Positions 55,376-64,000 of a stretch of 64,000 nt of DNA are shown piece by piece. Source of the DNA: Actinopolymorpha cephalotaxi (GTDB taxonomy: Bacteria > Actinomycetota > Actinomycetes > Propionibacteriales > Actinopolymorphaceae); NCBI RefSeq assembly GCF_013408535.1, contig NZ_JACBZA010000001.1, forward strand, positions 124,001 to 188,000. Direction: 5' to 3'. The translations under genes and the position numbers were made by a program. Position 1 is the stretch's first letter. The number at the start of each line of letters is the position of its first letter. Below the pieces are notes generated by a model. That model had not been told where the DNA came from. It was given only the letters and a program-made list of their open reading frames with translations, and did not search any database.

Positions 55376-55713
55376 GGAGGCTCCCGGAGACGTCGTCGTC
55401 CCGCCGGGAACCGCGCCGTGACCACCCGAGACCGGCCGGCGGCCCGGTCAACGGGGAGTATGACCGCGCTCACCCGCTGTCGTAAACAGTGCGGAGGCAC
55501 GCTGGCACATTTCAGCCACACAGCACCGCGCGGGGCGCCGACGGCCGCGGTTCGTCCACGCCACAAGGGGTCCGGCGGCTGGCGAGCTCCGGACACCCCG
55601 CGCGGGCGGGGTTCTCACATGGTGAACGTGCAGGGGGTCGGCGTTGCCCTGCGTTACCGCGCGCCATAGCGTCGAGCCCTCGCTTTTGGGCCCGCACAGA
55701 GGAGTTGACGCCC
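55376..55713 (+). promoter_or_regulatory. Promoter region of the ThuA-Gfo/Idh operon
   Basis: TTGCCC (55644-55649), 17 bp and TAGCGT (55667-55672) make a fair promoter, with AGAGGAG (55699-55705) as ribosome binding site for the GTG at 55714. The left half of the gap also carries the protease promoter, where no clear hexamers are seen. Confidence 0.5.
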
Positions 55714-56394
55714 GTGACAACATCGCCGGGTCCCGCCGGATCGCGCCGCGCGCTGGTCGTCCGCGGAGGCTGGGACGGCCACGTGCCCGTGGAGGCCACC
55801 GACCGCTTCGTCCCGTTCCTGCGGGAGAGCGGCTACACCGTGGAGGTCTCCGACACCCTGGACTCCTACCTCGACGCCGACCTGCTCGCCTCGACCGACC
55901 TGATCGTGCAGTGCTGGACGATGGGCCAGATCAGCCCCGAGCAGAGCAAGGGCCTGGACACGGCCGTGCGCGCGGGCACCGGGCTGGCCGGCTGGCACGG
56001 TGGCATCGCCGACGCCTTCCGCGCCGACCTCGAGTACAACTTCATGGTGGGCGGGCAGTTCATCTGCCACCCGGGCGGCTTCGTCGACCACGAGGTCCAG
56101 GTGCTCCCCGAGCGCGCCGACCACCCGATCGTCGCCGGTGTCGACCGGTTCGCCGTGCACACCGAGCAGTACTACGTCCACGCGGACCCGAGCATCGACG
56201 TGCTCGCGTCCACGACCTTCGCCGCGCATCCGGACTACCCCTGGATCGACGGCGTGACCATGCCGGCCGTGTGGACCAAGCCGTGGGGTTCCGGCCGGGT
56301 CTTCGTCTGTACGGTCGGTCACAAGCTTGACGACCTCGACACCCCCGAGGTTCGCACGATCATCGAGAGAGGACTGCTATGGGCGAGCCGCTGA
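55714..56394 (+). CDS. ThuA-domain protein, 226 aa
   Basis: Glutamine-amidotransferase-like ThuA fold: ALVVRGGWDGHVPVEATDRFVPFLRESGYTVEVSDTLDSY, DLIVQCWTMGQIS, GTGLAGWHGGIADAF, HPGGFVDHEVQVL, YYVHADPSIDVLAS and MPAVWTKPWGSGRVFVCTVGH. ThuA proteins serve in trehalose/sugar utilisation, often with Gfo/Idh dehydrogenases that oxidise C3. Overlaps the next gene by 16 nt. Confidence 0.88.
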   Translation: MTTSPGPAGSRRALVVRGGWDGHVPVEATDRFVPFLRESGYTVEVSDTLDSYLDADLLASTDLIVQCWTMGQISPEQSKGLDTAVRAGTGLAGWHGGIADAFRADLEYNFMVGGQFICHPGGFVDHEVQVLPERADHPIVAGVDRFAVHTEQYYVHADPSIDVLASTTFAAHPDYPWIDGVTMPAVWTKPWGSGRVFVCTVGHKLDDLDTPEVRTIIERGLLWASR

Positions 56395-57476
56395 AGGTTG
56401 GCGTCGTCGGCACGGGCACGATCAGCAAGACGTACTTCGAGCACATGGCCAAGCTGCCGGGTCTCGACGTCGTCGCCGCCGCCGACCTGGACATCTCGCG
56501 GGCCAAGGCCGCCGGTGACAAGTACGGCGTACGGGCGCTGACTCCCGACGAGCTGTACGCCGACGACGAGGTGGAGGCCATCCTCAACCTCACCATCCCG
56601 GCCGCGCACGCCTCGGTGGCGCTGGCCGCGCTCGGTGCGGGCAAGCACGTCTACGGCGAGAAGCCGCTGGCCGCCACCCGGCAGGAGGCCCGTCCGCTGC
56701 TCGACGCCGCCACCAAGGCCGGCCTGCGGATCGGCTGCGCGCCCGACACCGTGCTCGGTACCGGTACGCAGACCGCACGGGCGCTGCTCGACCGCGGTGA
56801 CATCGGTCAGCCGACCGCGGCGAGCGCGTTCTTCGTCAGCCCCGGACCCGAGCCGTGGCACCCGGACCCGGAGTTCTACTACAAGCCGGGTGGCGGGCCG
56901 CTGCTGGACATGGGCCCCTACTACCTCAGTGCGCTGATCAACCTGCTCGGGCCGATCGCCCGGGTGACCGGCCGGGTCGGCCGGGCCAAGCAGGAGCGCA
57001 CCGTCGGCAGTGGCCCCAAGGAGGGGACGACGTTCAGCGTCGAGGTGGACACGCACGTGACCGGCGTCCTCGAGCACGAGTCCGGCGTCCTCAGCACGGT
57101 CGTCACCAGCTTCGACGTCTGGGGCTCCAACCTGCCCCGGATCGAGGTCTACGGCAGCGAGGGTTCGCTGTCGGTGCCCGACCCGAACGGCTTCGCCGGT
57201 GACGTCAAGCTGTACAAGCCCGGCAGCGACTGGTCGGTGGCGAAGGTGGCCGGTGGGTACGCCGACTCCGGCCGCGGCTACGGCCTGGCGGACATGGCAC
57301 GGGCGATCCGCGACGGCGGCGCGCACCGGGCCAGCGGCGAGCTCGCCTACCACGTGCTCGACGTGATGGAGTCGCTGCTGGAGTCCGGCGCCCAGGGCGG
57401 CGCTCCGGTCGAGGTGGACAGCACGGTCGAGCGGCCGGCGGCCGTCCCCGAGGGTGCGACCCCCGACAAGGCCTGA
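56379..57476 (+). CDS. Gfo/Idh/MocA oxidoreductase, 365 aa
   Basis: GVVGTGTISKTYFEHMAKLPGLDVVAAADLD (Rossmann, 5-35), HVYGEKPLAATRQEARPLLDAA (catalytic Lys in EKP ~93), PGGGPLLDMGPYYLSALINLLGPI (substrate His replaced by Tyr in this group), ending in a Rossmann-independent sheet domain. Paired with ThuA, as in 3-keto-sugar forming systems. Starts inside the ThuA 3' end. Terminator after it. Confidence 0.88.
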   Translation: MGEPLKVGVVGTGTISKTYFEHMAKLPGLDVVAAADLDISRAKAAGDKYGVRALTPDELYADDEVEAILNLTIPAAHASVALAALGAGKHVYGEKPLAATRQEARPLLDAATKAGLRIGCAPDTVLGTGTQTARALLDRGDIGQPTAASAFFVSPGPEPWHPDPEFYYKPGGGPLLDMGPYYLSALINLLGPIARVTGRVGRAKQERTVGSGPKEGTTFSVEVDTHVTGVLEHESGVLSTVVTSFDVWGSNLPRIEVYGSEGSLSVPDPNGFAGDVKLYKPGSDWSVAKVAGGYADSGRGYGLADMARAIRDGGAHRASGELAYHVLDVMESLLESGAQGGAPVEVDSTVERPAAVPEGATPDKA

Positions 57477-58604: not shown

Positions 58605-59477
58605 TCAGCCCTTCACGCCAGTGAGGGTGATGCCCTGGATGAACGTGCGCTGGGCGAAGAAGAACACCACGATCACCGGGATCACCACCACGGTGCTGGC
58701 CGCCATCAGCGGCCCGAACTGCGAGCTGTACTCGCTGCGGAAGAAGGTCAGCCCGAGCGAGAGGGTGTAACTGTCGGCGTCACTGAGGTAGATCAGCGGG
58801 CCGAGCAGGTCGTTCCAGGACGTGAGGAACTGGAACAGCGCCACCGCTGCCAAGGCCGGCTTGGCAAGCGGCAGGATGATCCGCCAGTAGATGACCAGCT
58901 CGTTGGCGCCGTCCATGCGGGCCGACTCCGACATCTCCTTCGGGATGCTCAGGAAGAACTGCCGGAGCAGGAAGATGTAGAACGGCACACCGAAGAAGTG
59001 CGGCACGATCAACGGCAGGTAGGTGTCGGTCCACCCGATCGACCGGAACATCGTGAACAGCGGCACCATCGTGACGTAGAACGGGATCATCATCGTGGAA
59101 AGGATCACCACGAACAGCGGTGTGCGCCACCGCCACTCGATCCGGGACAGCCCGTATGCCACGAACGAGCTCGACAGCGCCGCGCCGAGCATGGAGAAGG
59201 CGCAGATCACCAGCGTGTTGAACAGATAGCGGGCGAACGGGAACACCTGCAGCCCCGCGATGTAGTTCTCCAGCGTCAGCGTCTTCGGAAACCACACCAC
59301 CGGAAAGGCGTTCAGGTCCACGCCGGTCTTCAGTGAGCCGGACACCATCCAGAAGAACGGCACCATGAAGATCACGCTGATCGCGATCAGGAAGGCGTGC
59401 GCGACGACCTTCTCGGCGAGTTTGTTCCAGCCCGCGCCCCGTTGGGCGGGGAGGGCCGTGCGTTGTGCGACTGCCAT
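58605..59477 (-). CDS. Sugar ABC transporter permease (MalG/UgpE type), 290 aa
   Basis: Six helices and the EAA loop [32 protein letters not shown] (~195-225) that docks the ATPase; C-terminal [35 protein letters not shown] is typical of CUT1 permeases. Works with the other permease and lipoprotein of the operon. Confidence 0.92.
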   Translation of the reverse strand: [290 protein letters not shown]

Positions 59478-59492: not shown

Positions 59493-60443
59493 CTATGCTC
59501 CGCCGTAGTAGACGCGCCGGCCGACCAGGCGGAAGACGAGCGCGGTCCCCAGGCCGACGATGATGAACAGCACCCAGGCGATCGCGCTCGCGTAGCCGAC
59601 CTTGAAGAACTGGAACGCGTTCTGGTACAGGTACAGGCCCGACACGAGGGTCTTGCCGGCCGGGCCGCCGGTGCCGTTGGTCAGCACGAACACCGGCGTG
59701 AAGAACTGGAAGCCGGCGATCAGACCGGTGACCAGGGCGAACAGCAGGTGCGGGCTGAGGAACGGCAGGCTCACGTGCCGGAAGCGCCGGAACACCCCCG
59801 CGCCGTCGACCTTGGCCTGGTCGTGCAGGTCCTGCGGCACGTCCTGCAGGCCCGCCAGCAGGATGATCATCAGGTTGCCCGCGCCCCAGGTGCTGAAGAT
59901 GATCAGCGCGGGCATCGCCCATTCGGGGCTTGCCAGCCAGCCCGGCCCGGTGATGCCGAACCACCCCAGGACCGTGTTGAAGACGCCGTACTGCGGGTTG
60001 AAGACGTACAACCACACCACGGCGGAGGCCACCAGCGGCACGATCGCCGGCAGGTAGAAGATCACCCGGTAGATCGACTGACCGCGGACGTTCAGGTTGA
60101 GCAGGATGGCGAGGAACAACGCCACCGCGATGCCGAGCGGCACGCTCACCACGATGTAGTAGAGCGTGTTGCCGAGCGAGTCCCACCAGGAGGAGTCCGA
60201 CACCAGGGACTCGTAGTTGCCGAGCCCGAGCCACTGCGCGGGCTTCATCATCGTGGCCGAGGTGAAGCTGTAGTACAGCGACACCAGCACCGGGTAGAGG
60301 GTGAACCACAACAGCCCGATGATCGCCGGTGAGGTGAACACCAGGCCCCAGAAGAAGTTGCGGCGTTGCTGGGGGGTGCGCGCGGGCCGTCTGGCGGCCG
60401 ACCGGCGCTCGGCTGACGACGACTGTGCCGTGGTCGTGGTCAT
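59493..60443 (-). CDS. Sugar ABC transporter permease (MalF/UgpA type), 316 aa
   Basis: Six helices, opening FFWGLVFTSPAIIGLLWFTLYPVLVSLYYSFT, EAA loop DLHDQAKVDGAGVFRRFRHVSLPFLSPHLLFAL (~205-237). ATG at 60443 behind GGAAGGAGG; its ATGA overlaps the stop of the lipoprotein gene. Confidence 0.92.
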   Translation of the reverse strand: MTTTTAQSSSAERRSAARRPARTPQQRRNFFWGLVFTSPAIIGLLWFTLYPVLVSLYYSFTSATMMKPAQWLGLGNYESLVSDSSWWDSLGNTLYYIVVSVPLGIAVALFLAILLNLNVRGQSIYRVIFYLPAIVPLVASAVVWLYVFNPQYGVFNTVLGWFGITGPGWLASPEWAMPALIIFSTWGAGNLMIILLAGLQDVPQDLHDQAKVDGAGVFRRFRHVSLPFLSPHLLFALVTGLIAGFQFFTPVFVLTNGTGGPAGKTLVSGLYLYQNAFQFFKVGYASAIAWVLFIIVGLGTALVFRLVGRRVYYGGA

Positions 60444-61837
60444 GCCTCGACCTCCTTCCGGAACCTGTCCCACTCGCCCATGACGTTCTTCTTGACCGTG
60501 CGCAGGGCCTGGATGGGTGTGCTCAAGCCGAGCACGGCGTTGCTGATCTGCTCGTCGAGCTGGGTGAAGTAGAAGTCGGCCACCGGCACCGGCGGGCGAA
60601 TGTTGGTCGCGGTGGTGAGTACGTCGTAGAACGGCGCCATCACCGGGTCGTCGCGGATCTCCGCGAGGACCGCGGCCTTGCGGTAGCCGGGCGGGAACCC
60701 GACCGTCTCCCACTGGGCCTTGGTGCCCTCGTCGGTGGCGCCGACCCAGCGCAGGAACTCCCACGCCTCGTCCTTGTGCCGGGCGGTCGCGGGGATGAAC
60801 ATCCCCCAGCCACCGATCCAGGCACCCGCACCGGGAGCCTTCGCCCCGGGCGGTTCGAAGGGAAGCAGCGTGGCGCCGATCTTCATGTCCTTGGCGTTGG
60901 TCTTGATGTCGCGGTAGTTCGGCGCGACCAGCGGAGCCATGCCGATGTTGCCGGTGCTGAACGGGTGCAGCTGCAGGCCCGGCGGCGTCACCGTCACCCG
61001 GTCGGCACCGCCCACCGACTTGGCGTACTTGACGATCCACTCCAGCGCCTTCACGGAGTACTCGTGGTCGGGAGTGACCTCCTCGCGTTCCTTGTCGTAG
61101 AACTCCGCGCCGAAGCCGAAGCCCCACGTGAACAGCGAGTTGGAGTAGCCGTAGGAGTCCCAGGGGATCATGCCGATCTTGGTGACGTTGGCCCCGGACT
61201 TCTTCAGGATCTTCGCGGAGTACTCGTCCACCTCCTCCAGCGTCTTCGGCGGCTTCTCCGGGTCCAGACCCGAGTCCTCGAACAACTGCTTGTTCCAGAA
61301 GAACGGGAAGTTCGGGTCGGCGTCCCACTGCATCTGCCAGACGCTGCCCTTGTAGGTGATGCTCTCCCAGACCGGCGCGAAGAAGTCGTCCTGGGACAGG
61401 CCCGCCGCCCGGTAGCGGCTGGTGAGGTCGGTCATGATGCCGAGCTCGACCCACTGCGGCGCCTGGGACGGAACGAGCTGACCGACGTCGGGTGGGTTGC
61501 CGCCGGCGATCGCGGTGAACAGCTTCTGCTGGACCGCGCCGCCGCCCATCCCGGCCGGCGCGTAGGTCACGCGTACGCCGATGTCGGGCTGGGCCTCCTC
61601 GAACTTCTTCGCGAGGTTGACCATCCCCGCACCGACGGTCGAACCCCAGACGCTGTAGACCTCGATGTTCGTCTTACGTCCCGGCGCCGGTTTCTTGTCC
61701 AGACCGACGTCGGTGATGGGCGGCGTGCCCTTGGTGAACGTGCACCCCCCGGTGAGGAGGCCCATCGCGCCCAGGCCAAGCCCGCCGAGGGCCTGGATCG
61801 CCCGTCGGCGCGAGATGCGTGCTGCCGGCATGACCAT
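60440..61837 (-). CDS. Sugar ABC transporter solute-binding lipoprotein, 465 aa
   Basis: Twin-arginine-type lipoprotein signal (SRRRAIQALGGLGLGAMGLLTGGC, lipobox Cys ~31), then a family 1 solute-binding protein (IEVYSVWGSTVGAGMVNLAKKFEEAQPDIGVRVTY, GGNPPDVGQLV, FYFTQLDEQISNAVLG). Binds a carbohydrate outside the membrane and delivers it to the two permeases. The operon has no ATPase, so a shared MsiK-type ATPase is likely. ATG at 61837; 61831 also fits AAGGAG. Confidence 0.9.
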   Translation of the reverse strand: MVMPAARISRRRAIQALGGLGLGAMGLLTGGCTFTKGTPPITDVGLDKKPAPGRKTNIEVYSVWGSTVGAGMVNLAKKFEEAQPDIGVRVTYAPAGMGGGAVQQKLFTAIAGGNPPDVGQLVPSQAPQWVELGIMTDLTSRYRAAGLSQDDFFAPVWESITYKGSVWQMQWDADPNFPFFWNKQLFEDSGLDPEKPPKTLEEVDEYSAKILKKSGANVTKIGMIPWDSYGYSNSLFTWGFGFGAEFYDKEREEVTPDHEYSVKALEWIVKYAKSVGGADRVTVTPPGLQLHPFSTGNIGMAPLVAPNYRDIKTNAKDMKIGATLLPFEPPGAKAPGAGAWIGGWGMFIPATARHKDEAWEFLRWVGATDEGTKAQWETVGFPPGYRKAAVLAEIRDDPVMAPFYDVLTTATNIRPPVPVADFYFTQLDEQISNAVLGLSTPIQALRTVKKNVMGEWDRFRKEVEA

Positions 61838-62093
61838 CGCACTCCTTTGCTCGTCGCGCTTGATCGTCGCGCTCCGCACACCTTGCTGACCCCGGGTGAG
61901 CACCAGAAGATGGCATCGAGCCCCGCATCTGGCAAGGATCGATCACACTGCCGAACACGCCGGGGTGGGTGGAGACGACCCAGGGTCGTCGAAAACCGCC
62001 AACCCCGCCTTGCGCTGTCCGAGTTCGGCCAGCCAGGCGACCGGTAGCGGCTCGGCGCGAAGGTTGGGCGAACAGCCTGGAAGGCTTGGCCTC

Positions 62094-64000
62094 ATGGCAC
62101 CAGACATCACACGTGCGGACGGAAAGCTGGGCTGGGGAATTCTCGGCCCGGGCAACATCGCCCGCCGCTTTGCAGGAGACCTCCCGGCGTCGAGCACCGG
62201 CGTGCTCGTGGCCGTGGGCAGCCGCGACCTCGACAAGGCGAAGGCGTTCGCCGCGGAGTTCGGCGGCGCCCGCGGCTACGGCAGCTACGAGGAACTACTC
62301 GCCGACGACGAGGTCGACGCGGTCTACATCTCGACCCCGCACCCGCAGCACGCCCAGTGGGCGATCAGGGCGGCCGAGGCGGGCAAGCACATCCTGTGCG
62401 AGAAGCCCCTGACCGTGAACCACGCCGAGACGATGGCCGTGATCGAGGCGGCCCGCGAGCATGACGTCTTCTTGATGGAGGCGTTCATGTACCGCTGCGT
62501 GCCGCAGACCGCGGCGCTGCTGGACCTGTTGCGCGAGGGCGCGATCGGGAAGATCCACCAGATCGAGGCGTCGTTCGCGTTCGGTGGCTCCCCGAACCCG
62601 GGCAGCCGGCTGTGGGACCCCGAGCTCGCCGGCGGCGGCATCCTCGACGTGGGCGGCTATCCCGTCTCGATGGCCCGGCTGATCGCCGGCGTCGCGGCCG
62701 GGCAGCCGTTCGCCGACCCGGAGTCGGTCAGCGCGGTCGGCCGGGTCGGCGAGACCGGTGTCGACGAGTGGACCGCGGCGACCCTCACGTTCCCCGGTGG
62801 AGTGTCCGCCCACGTGGTGACCGGCATCCGCAAGGGCGCGGAGAACGTCGTCCGGGTGGTCGGCAGCGAGGGCTACCTCGTGGTGCCCAACCCGTGGCTG
62901 CCGGCCCGGGACGGAAGCAGCGCGGGCATCGAGGTGCACCGCGTCGGTGAGGACGACCGGCACGTCGAGGTGGAGACGGTTCCGCTGTACGCCGCCGAGG
63001 CCGACACGGTGGCCGCGCACCTGGCCGACCGCCAGGCGCCGGCGATGGCCTGGGCGGACTCCCTCGGCCAGGCGGCCACCCTGGACGCCTGGCGGGCCGC
63101 CATCGGGCTGGAGTACCCCTCGGAGCGGCTGGACGCGAACCGGCCGACCGTGCACCGTCGGCCGCTGCGCCGGCGCGACGACCACACCATGAAGTACGGC
63201 CAGATCGTGGGCGTGGACAAGCAGGTCTCCCGCCTGGTGATGGGCGTGGACAACCAGATGAACCTCTCGCACGGCACCGCGATGTTCGACGACTTCTTCG
63301 AGCGCGGCGGGACCACCTTCGACACCGGCTACATCTACGGCCGGGGACAGTGCGAACGCGTTCTGGGGCAGTGGATCCACAACCGCGGTGTCCGCGACGA
63401 CGTGGTGGTCATCGGCAAGGGAGCGCACACCCCGCACTGCGACCCGGAGTCGATCACCCGGCAGCTGCACGAGTCGCTGGAACGCCTGCAGACCGACTAC
63501 GTCGACGTGTACTTCATGCACCGGGACAACACCGACTACCCGGTGGGCGAGTTCGTCGACGTGCTGGACGAGCACTACCGTGCCGGCCGGATCAAGGCGT
63601 TCGGTGGTTCGAACTGGACCCTGGAGCGCCTCGCCGAGGCGAACGCCTACGCCGAGGCCAACGGCCGTCAACCCATGGTTGCGGTGAGCAACAACTTCAG
63701 CCTGGCAAGGGCGCTGGACGTTCCCTGGGCCGGCTGCCTGGCGATCAGCGACGACGAGTCCCGGCAGTGGCTGGAGAAGAACCAGCTGGCGCTGATGCCC
63801 TGGTCGAGCCAGGCGCGGGGCTTCTTCACCGGACGTGCAAAGCCCGAGGACCGTTCCGACGCGGAACTGGTGCGGTGCTGGTACAGCGACGACAACTTCG
63901 AGCGCCTGGCCCGGGCCACGTCGCTGGCGCGCAAGCGGGGTGTGCACCCGACCGCGATCGCGCTGGCGTACGTCCTGCACCAGGACTTCCCGACGTTCCC
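62094..64000 (+). CDS. Gfo/Idh oxidoreductase fused to aldo/keto reductase (3' partial)
   Basis: One frame runs from the ATG at 62094 past the right edge. Residues 1-~355: Gfo/Idh/MocA (WGILGPGNIARRFAGDL, catalytic EKP in HILCEKPLTVNHAETM, ELAGGGILDVGGYPVSMARLI). From ~363 (MKYGQIVGVDKQVSRLVMGVDNQ): an aldo/keto reductase barrel with catalytic Asp/Tyr in FDTGYIYGRGQCERVLGQW, Lys in VVIGKGAHTP, His in VYFMHRDN and FGGSNWT. Both dehydrogenases probably act in turn on one sugar. Divergent from the ABC operon, 256 bp apart. Confidence 0.87.
   Translation, partial: MAPDITRADGKLGWGILGPGNIARRFAGDLPASSTGVLVAVGSRDLDKAKAFAAEFGGARGYGSYEELLADDEVDAVYISTPHPQHAQWAIRAAEAGKHILCEKPLTVNHAETMAVIEAAREHDVFLMEAFMYRCVPQTAALLDLLREGAIGKIHQIEASFAFGGSPNPGSRLWDPELAGGGILDVGGYPVSMARLIAGVAAGQPFADPESVSAVGRVGETGVDEWTAATLTFPGGVSAHVVTGIRKGAENVVRVVGSEGYLVVPNPWLPARDGSSAGIEVHRVGEDDRHVEVETVPLYAAEADTVAAHLADRQAPAMAWADSLGQAATLDAWRAAIGLEYPSERLDANRPTVHRRPLRRRDDHTMKYGQIVGVDKQVSRLVMGVDNQMNLSHGTAMFDDFFERGGTTFDTGYIYGRGQCERVLGQWIHNRGVRDDVVVIGKGAHTPHCDPESITRQLHESLERLQTDYVDVYFMHRDNTDYPVGEFVDVLDEHYRAGRIKAFGGSNWTLERLAEANAYAEANGRQPMVAVSNNFSLARALDVPWAGCLAISDDESRQWLEKNQLALMPWSSQARGFFTGRAKPEDRSDAELVRCWYSDDNFERLARATSLARKRGVHPTAIALAYVLHQDFPTF

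Follow-up and report, generated by a model that had tools for sequence, protein, structure and literature searches.

A bacterial fusion of a Gfo/Idh/MocA dehydrogenase with an aldo/keto reductase and its possible role in sugar epimerisation

A single open reading frame of Actinopolymorpha cephalotaxi, located at the end of the 64,000-nt stretch of DNA analysed here (the window), encodes a dehydrogenase of the Gfo/Idh/MocA family followed by an aldo/keto reductase (AKR), and comparison with other genomes confirmed that this fusion is real, old and present in many bacterial groups. Both halves come from known families, and public databases already contain the fused sequence; a search of open-licence papers by title and abstract, in which slash-containing family names cannot be queried, found no description of it. 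We propose, with somewhat less than even confidence, that the protein is a bifunctional, epimerase-like sugar enzyme which first oxidises and then reduces, and which arose once by loss of a stop codon and spread between phyla.

Reading frame and domain architecture

The coding sequence runs on the forward strand from an ATG at 62094 to the edge of the window at 64000 and on to a TGA at 64101-64103 (contig position 188103; L009:1095-3104), giving a protein of 669 residues. The last 34 residues and the stop codon fall outside the window, the stop ending 103 bases past its edge. The initial annotation had noted intact motifs of both families in one frame of more than 635 codons, and reading the remaining 3′ end bore this out: the frame stays open past the window, its 669 codons contain no stop and both active sites are present.

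The dehydrogenase half comprises the NAD(P)-binding Rossmann domain PF01408 (residues 13-130, 62130-62483; Pfam score 88.3 bits, cut-off 24) and the C-terminal domain PF22725, GFO_IDH_MocA_C3 (residues 142-262, 62517-62879; 69.1 bits, cut-off 27). Both domain scores, together with the lysine of an EKP motif (Lys104, 62403-62405) and an Asp/Tyr pair in the C-terminal domain (Asp185, 62646-62648; Tyr189, 62658-62660), place it in the Gfo/Idh/MocA family. An interdomain linker at about residues 345-365 (63126-63188) leads to an in-frame ATG at the junction; the presence of this internal methionine had been correctly recognised, whereas its position is residue 366 (63189-63191) and not about 363. 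The second half is assigned to the AKR superfamily by its Aldo_ket_red domain PF00248 (residues 386-665, from 63249 to 64000 and beyond the window; 171.9 bits, cut-off 24), by the family fold in the model of a close relative (L057) and by an Asp-Tyr-Lys-His tetrad whose codons lie at 63321 (Asp410), 63336 (Tyr415), 63417 (Lys442) and 63519 (His476), all on the forward strand. Domains of an oxidising family and of the AKR superfamily share one chain, as would be expected of a REPI-like fusion epimerase.

An upstream GTG, which would give a protein of 735 aa, was considered as an alternative start. The ATG at 62094 was preferred because alignments with homologues begin at about residue 5-12 and close relatives keep this ATG. 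Among 16 loci compared, GGAAGG precedes the ATG start in five close relatives (L010-L014).

Distribution among bacteria

The initial annotation had proposed looking for the same fusion across actinomycetes. Among 97 genomes from the same order, a search at the protein level (E ≤ 1e-60) recovered 41 full-length, stop-free rows in 40 of them. An internal stop or a frameshift, named in the initial annotation as the observation that would speak against a genuine fusion, was looked for, and none of the 41 rows carries an internal stop. All 8 genomes from the family of A. cephalotaxi and all 31 of family f3 encode the fusion, as does 1 of the remaining 58; one further genome of the order has the Gfo/Idh half alone. 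The distribution across the phylum is patchy, since a thin, even draw found the fusion in only 2 of 396 genomes (E ≤ 1e-100), the genome studied here included. Another genome of the same genus encodes a second, diverged copy of the fusion with 67% identity (L041; G003:C1:1454314-1456320).

Beyond the order, scanning of GTDB species genomes with an alignment of the family detected at least 567 relatives. The best 80 of these all match from end to end and belong to Actinomycetota, Chloroflexota, Planctomycetota, Verrucomicrobiota, Lentisphaerota, Armatimonadota, Abditibacteriota, Omnitrophota and other groups; 79 of the 80 are free of internal stops, the exception being L098 with one stop. Assembly error, sequencing error and a chance frame could be ruled out, because the frame is conserved in 40/97 genomes of the order and in 79/80 of the best GTDB loci.

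Plasmids carry the fusion as well. Of 202 matching plasmid records, 196 come from rhizobia and their relatives, and in 195 at least 80% of the query is matched at a single place; a few of the listed matches are split into pieces, and one of these, from Paenibacillus, consists of two genes. The Sinorhizobium meliloti copy lies on pSymA (1289092-1291110), and a search under six presumed locus names found nothing on its expression. Among the plasmid records listed, annotations name the protein after one half, mostly as "aldo/keto reductase" and sometimes as "Gfo/Idh/MocA family oxidoreductase".

Origin from a pair of neighbouring genes

In Planctomycetota, 33 of 294 genomes gave matches at E ≤ 1e-60, and 20 rows are stop-free, full-length fusions. 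In six genomes of the phylum (L160-L165) the two halves are separate neighbouring genes, with the Gfo/Idh gene first. These pairs show the path from gene pair to fusion, in which the former start codon can still be recognised: L161 has an ATG (reading MKYG) four bases past the stop of the first gene, the two genes of L162 share a reading frame but are separated by a stop and new ATGs, and in L163 AAGGAG stands ahead of the AKR ATG. The Paenibacillus plasmid record (L182) holds an unfused pair in the same order, with AAGGAGG ahead of the second gene. Met366 is best read as the relic start codon of a once-separate AKR gene, because the starts of separate AKRs align with it; in an alignment of seven, it matches an ATG in six and the GTG start in L164. 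That all seven unfused pairs keep the same order suggests that both halves serve one pathway.

In a tree of the AKR halves, the fusions (46 plus 4 rhizobial, 50 rows) form one clade with an SH-aLRT support of 100 against 15 other rows, of which seven come from the unfused pairs, six from solo genes and two from the outgroup. The fusion clade also received 100 in an earlier tree of 52 fusions without rhizobia. Both trees came from a quick search of selected fusions with SH-aLRT as the only support measure, six near-duplicates of the 52 being left out of the tree with rhizobial rows. The finding is most simply explained by one fusion event, in which the stop codon between neighbouring Gfo/Idh and AKR genes would have been lost; the fusion would then have spread between phyla. 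The single origin rests on the AKR trees, because the Gfo/Idh trees, with very long outgroup branches, lack the resolution needed for counting fusion events.

Solo versions of either half occur too, which means that the halves can do without each other. In the Gfo/Idh tree, the solo genes L090 (Omnitrophota) and L043 (a genome of the same order) are nested among fusions, suggesting that the halves sometimes separate again after fusion. The Omnitrophota gene (G511:C508:719-1738) is 53% identical to the N-terminal half, lies about 1 kb from a fusion on the same contig and is its sister in the tree. It looks like a copy that has lost its AKR half.

Is the second half also translated separately?

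Independent translation of the second domain, the other observation that the initial annotation held to be incompatible with its claim, was searched for without any good sign of it. Position 366 is encoded by ATG in 77 of 84 fusions; five others have Ile (ATC, ATT) and two Val (GTT), so that codon 366 is neither ATG, GTG nor TTG in 7 of the 84. Of six rhizobial fusions, three have ATT or ATA there and three have GTG, which could in principle be used as a start. In a wider sample of 119 fusions, 12 lack any in-frame ATG around the junction. Of the other 107, 18 (17%) have a ribosome-site core ahead of this ATG, compared with 13.4% of 27,820 control codon positions, a small nominal excess among unweighted related sequences and no clear enrichment; of five unfused AKR ATG starts, three have the core. 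At the junction in the window itself no such core was found.

The AKR half might still be made additionally on its own from codon 366, giving two proteins in practice. Its alignment with the start of the separate AKRs, the frequent ATG or GTG and the slightly more common core would fit such an arrangement, whereas the missing start codons, the smallness of the excess next to the unfused ATG starts and the bare junction in the window speak against it. We consider it very unlikely, and the fusion is probably not two proteins.

Active sites, cofactor and predicted structure

We take Lys104 of the EKP motif, Asp185 and Tyr189 to be the catalytic residues of the Gfo/Idh half, and Asp410, Tyr415, Lys442 and His476 to be the AKR tetrad. 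In an alignment of the protein with 83 further fusions (n=84), EKP (103-105), Asp185, Tyr189, Asp410, Lys442 and His476 are each present in 84/84 and Tyr415 in 83/84. The six rhizobial fusions (L176-L181) keep both catalytic sets in every case.

Position 44 is Arg in 69 of the 84 fusions and Ser in 14, and the Arg is shared with KijD10, which was solved with NADP. Arg641, which presumably sits in the AKR cofactor motif, is found in 79/84. Judged by these residues, Arg44 and Arg641 fit one shared cofactor and would favour NADP(H) at both sites, though not decisively: a shared NADP(H) is not certain, because Ser occupies position 44 in 14 of the 84 fusions and because Glu645 (84/84) and Ser649 (79/84) deviate from the Gln and Asn that we assume to be usual at these positions of the motif.

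For the Actinopolymorpha alba protein (L057, 80% identical), a model built from a 45-sequence alignment reached a mean pLDDT of 93.9 and a pTM of 0.92, and the linker blocks had a pLDDT of 95-96. The fusion is thus predicted to be one rigid two-domain body with an ordered linker; freely tumbling domains would not be expected to yield such a pTM. Functional coupling of the halves is supported by this confident single-body model together with the unfused neighbouring pairs.

The nearest folds of the N-terminal half of this model are dimeric dihydrodiol dehydrogenase (2o48, Z 43.4) and the sugar 3-ketoreductase KijD10 (3rc1, Z 39.7), with which the EKP and Asp/Tyr residues are aligned; both differ from the fusion in that their solved chains have about 330 residues and no AKR, and are 27-32% identical. 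For the C-terminal half, the nearest folds include DepB (8hwn, Z 34.1), tied with 7utf (also DepB, 33.6) and 4xk2 (33.1). By sequence, however, the nearest solved relatives of the AKR half are 8xr2 and 8jwk, then IolS, and DepB ranks lower. Foldseek and VIA lists were dominated by the N-terminal half, and the absence of a family from them is uninformative.

Several known systems can be compared with the fusion. The oxidation step before DepB is carried out by a separate PQQ enzyme. DepB itself, a stand-alone AKR and 26% identical to the C-terminal half, is reported to reduce 3-keto-deoxynivalenol to the 3-epimer (PMC9427786). REPI/STORR of poppy resembles the fusion in its logic of two modules in one chain and differs from it as a plant alkaloid enzyme of separate origin. 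Its first module is a haem protein, a P450, and its second an AKR. The two modules of this polypeptide perform sequential steps of reticuline epimerisation (PMC10813097). Unlike the fusion, YcjQ, YcjR and YcjS of Escherichia coli are separate proteins, with an epimerase/isomerase between the two dehydrogenases. YcjS is a Gfo/Idh enzyme, and the set is not known to include an AKR. The gene cluster that encodes its two sugar dehydrogenases also contains a LacI-type repressor and a sugar ABC transporter (PMC11543891). Glucose-fructose and aldose-aldose oxidoreductases (1ofg, 5a02), finally, share the fold of the N-terminal half and differ from the fusion by having no AKR domain. They couple oxidation and reduction as well, one active site doing both. 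By analogy with REPI, DepB and YcjQ/R/S, a redox-neutral reaction of the fusion appears possible, if somewhat short of probable.

Gene neighbourhood and possible function

Upstream of the fusion and divergent from it, the window encodes a sugar-type ABC transporter with a solute-binding protein (60440-61903; UgpB-like match, 35.9 bits against a cut-off of 411) and two permeases with BPD_transp_1 domain matches (59493-60416 and 58605-59477), all on the reverse strand. Of 47 actinomycete loci, 35 have a transporter and/or LacI cluster no more than four ORFs away from the fusion (transporter 28, LacI 11); the loci are not independent, because 14 are Kribbella-like and 7 come from the family of A. 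cephalotaxi. Outside actinomycetes and rhizobia, the same clusters were found near the fusion in 0 of 42 loci, a search that transporters of other families would escape. These counts cover 89 of 90 loci, L098 being left out, and are rough, because ORF calling was mechanical and used no gene finder. Comparison of neighbouring ORFs found no partner gene that is conserved across phyla.

Of six rhizobial regions compared, five are annotated, and in all five a transporter operon lies upstream of the fusion on the same strand. Rhizobium etli, Sinorhizobium sp. B11 and Phyllobacterium have the order regulator, solute-binding protein, permeases, ATPase, fusion; Sinorhizobium sp. M103 has permeases, ATPase, fusion; and in R. 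tumorigenes a GH42 beta-galactosidase is placed between ATPase and fusion. These operons bear on the idea that the two halves perform two successive oxidations of one sugar, for instance the AKR at the anomeric carbon and the Gfo/Idh half at a ring hydroxyl, yielding a keto-lactone or keto acid. Sugar dehydrogenases occur in both families, and while no NCBIfam equivalog reaches its cut-off with the fusion, the best-scoring profile is D-xylose 1-dehydrogenase (97.9 of 350 bits). However, a kinase, lactonase or dehydratase for the product, which might be expected next to it, is not listed beside the fusion in the annotated rhizobial operons compared, and several named solved AKR relatives are reductases; we consider a double oxidation unlikely.

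Pfam searches of 30 neighbour proteins from other loci returned several housekeeping functions in non-actinomycetes (queuosine synthesis, tRNA synthetase, Rho); sugar-related neighbours among the 30 were a GH1 gene adjoining the fusion of a Portnoybacteria genome (L080), a sulfatase (L073) and a second Gfo/Idh gene (L082). Such housekeeping surroundings, the 0/42 loci with a sugar-transport cluster and the solo versions of each half would fit halves which act on different molecules and were fused for dosage or cofactor recycling, as in a sugar dehydrogenase feeding NADPH to a carbonyl-detoxifying AKR. Against this stand the seven genomes or plasmids in which the separate genes hold both order and adjacency, and the linker and pTM of the model, which suggest that the geometry is kept; we regard this explanation as improbable.

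Oxidation and then reduction of the same sugar is most simply inferred because a dehydrogenase and a reductase stay together, often beside a sugar importer. The Gfo/Idh half would oxidise one hydroxyl of an imported sugar or glycoside with NADP+, giving a keto sugar, and the AKR half would use the resulting NADPH to reduce this carbonyl from the opposite face, or to reduce a carbonyl formed by rearrangement. The net reaction would be an epimerisation or isomerisation without net cofactor use. The initial annotation, which had suggested channelled epimerisation through a keto sugar with NAD(P)H recycled between the domains, is thereby supported in part: the fusion and its two intact active sites bear it out, while epimerisation, channelling and recycling are putative. 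More broadly, the fusions may represent an unrecognised, widespread class of one-chain sugar epimerases or isomerases, in which sites of fixed geometry pass on a keto sugar using recycled NADP(H) and a single gene beside a transporter makes a foreign sugar usable, although at about one chance in three we consider this class doubtful. Counting against the epimerase reading are the 42 other loci without a transporter or LacI cluster, the housekeeping neighbours, the solo halves and the closer sequence match to 8xr2 and 8jwk than to DepB. If the redox-neutral reading is true, it would constitute a new way of epimerising sugars that could be put to use in making rare ones, and it could account for those rhizobial sugar-transport operons that list the fusion as their sole enzyme.

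Beyond the transporter, at 55600-57476, lie a ThuA-family gene and, overlapping it, a second Gfo/Idh gene; the distance is 1.1 kb to the transporter and 4.6 kb to the fusion. We take this pair to be thuAB-like, hinting at keto-sugar chemistry in the region. It is also compatible with the handling of 3-keto sugars together with an isomerase or lyase of the AP_endonuc_2 type, in which the Gfo/Idh half would form a 3-keto glycoside, or reduce one, and the AKR would reduce an intermediate further along the pathway. AP_endonuc_2 proteins are encoded directly 3′ of the Phyllobacterium fusion (L180) and 1.2 kb downstream of the unfused pair L160, and one on an Enterococcus plasmid, whose 31.3 bits barely exceed the cut-off of 31.1, neighbours a solo AKR and a sugar transporter. 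YcjQ/R/S of E. coli form such a set (PMC11543891). None of the 30 scanned neighbour proteins matches AP_endonuc_2, though, and no such gene is listed in four of the five annotated rhizobial regions; we rate this possibility as quite improbable.

Two further loci deserve mention. Just past the window, a gene for a 625-residue protein (L009:3192-5066, reverse strand), without a Pfam or NCBIfam match at 0.001, converges with the fusion, and a GH2 glycosidase gene lies upstream of it on the same strand. On the plasmid of Enterococcus faecium (L183:7959-12779), the related solo AKR (38% identical) is accompanied by a gene for a sugar phosphate isomerase/epimerase, by PTS genes and by an ABC sugar transporter.
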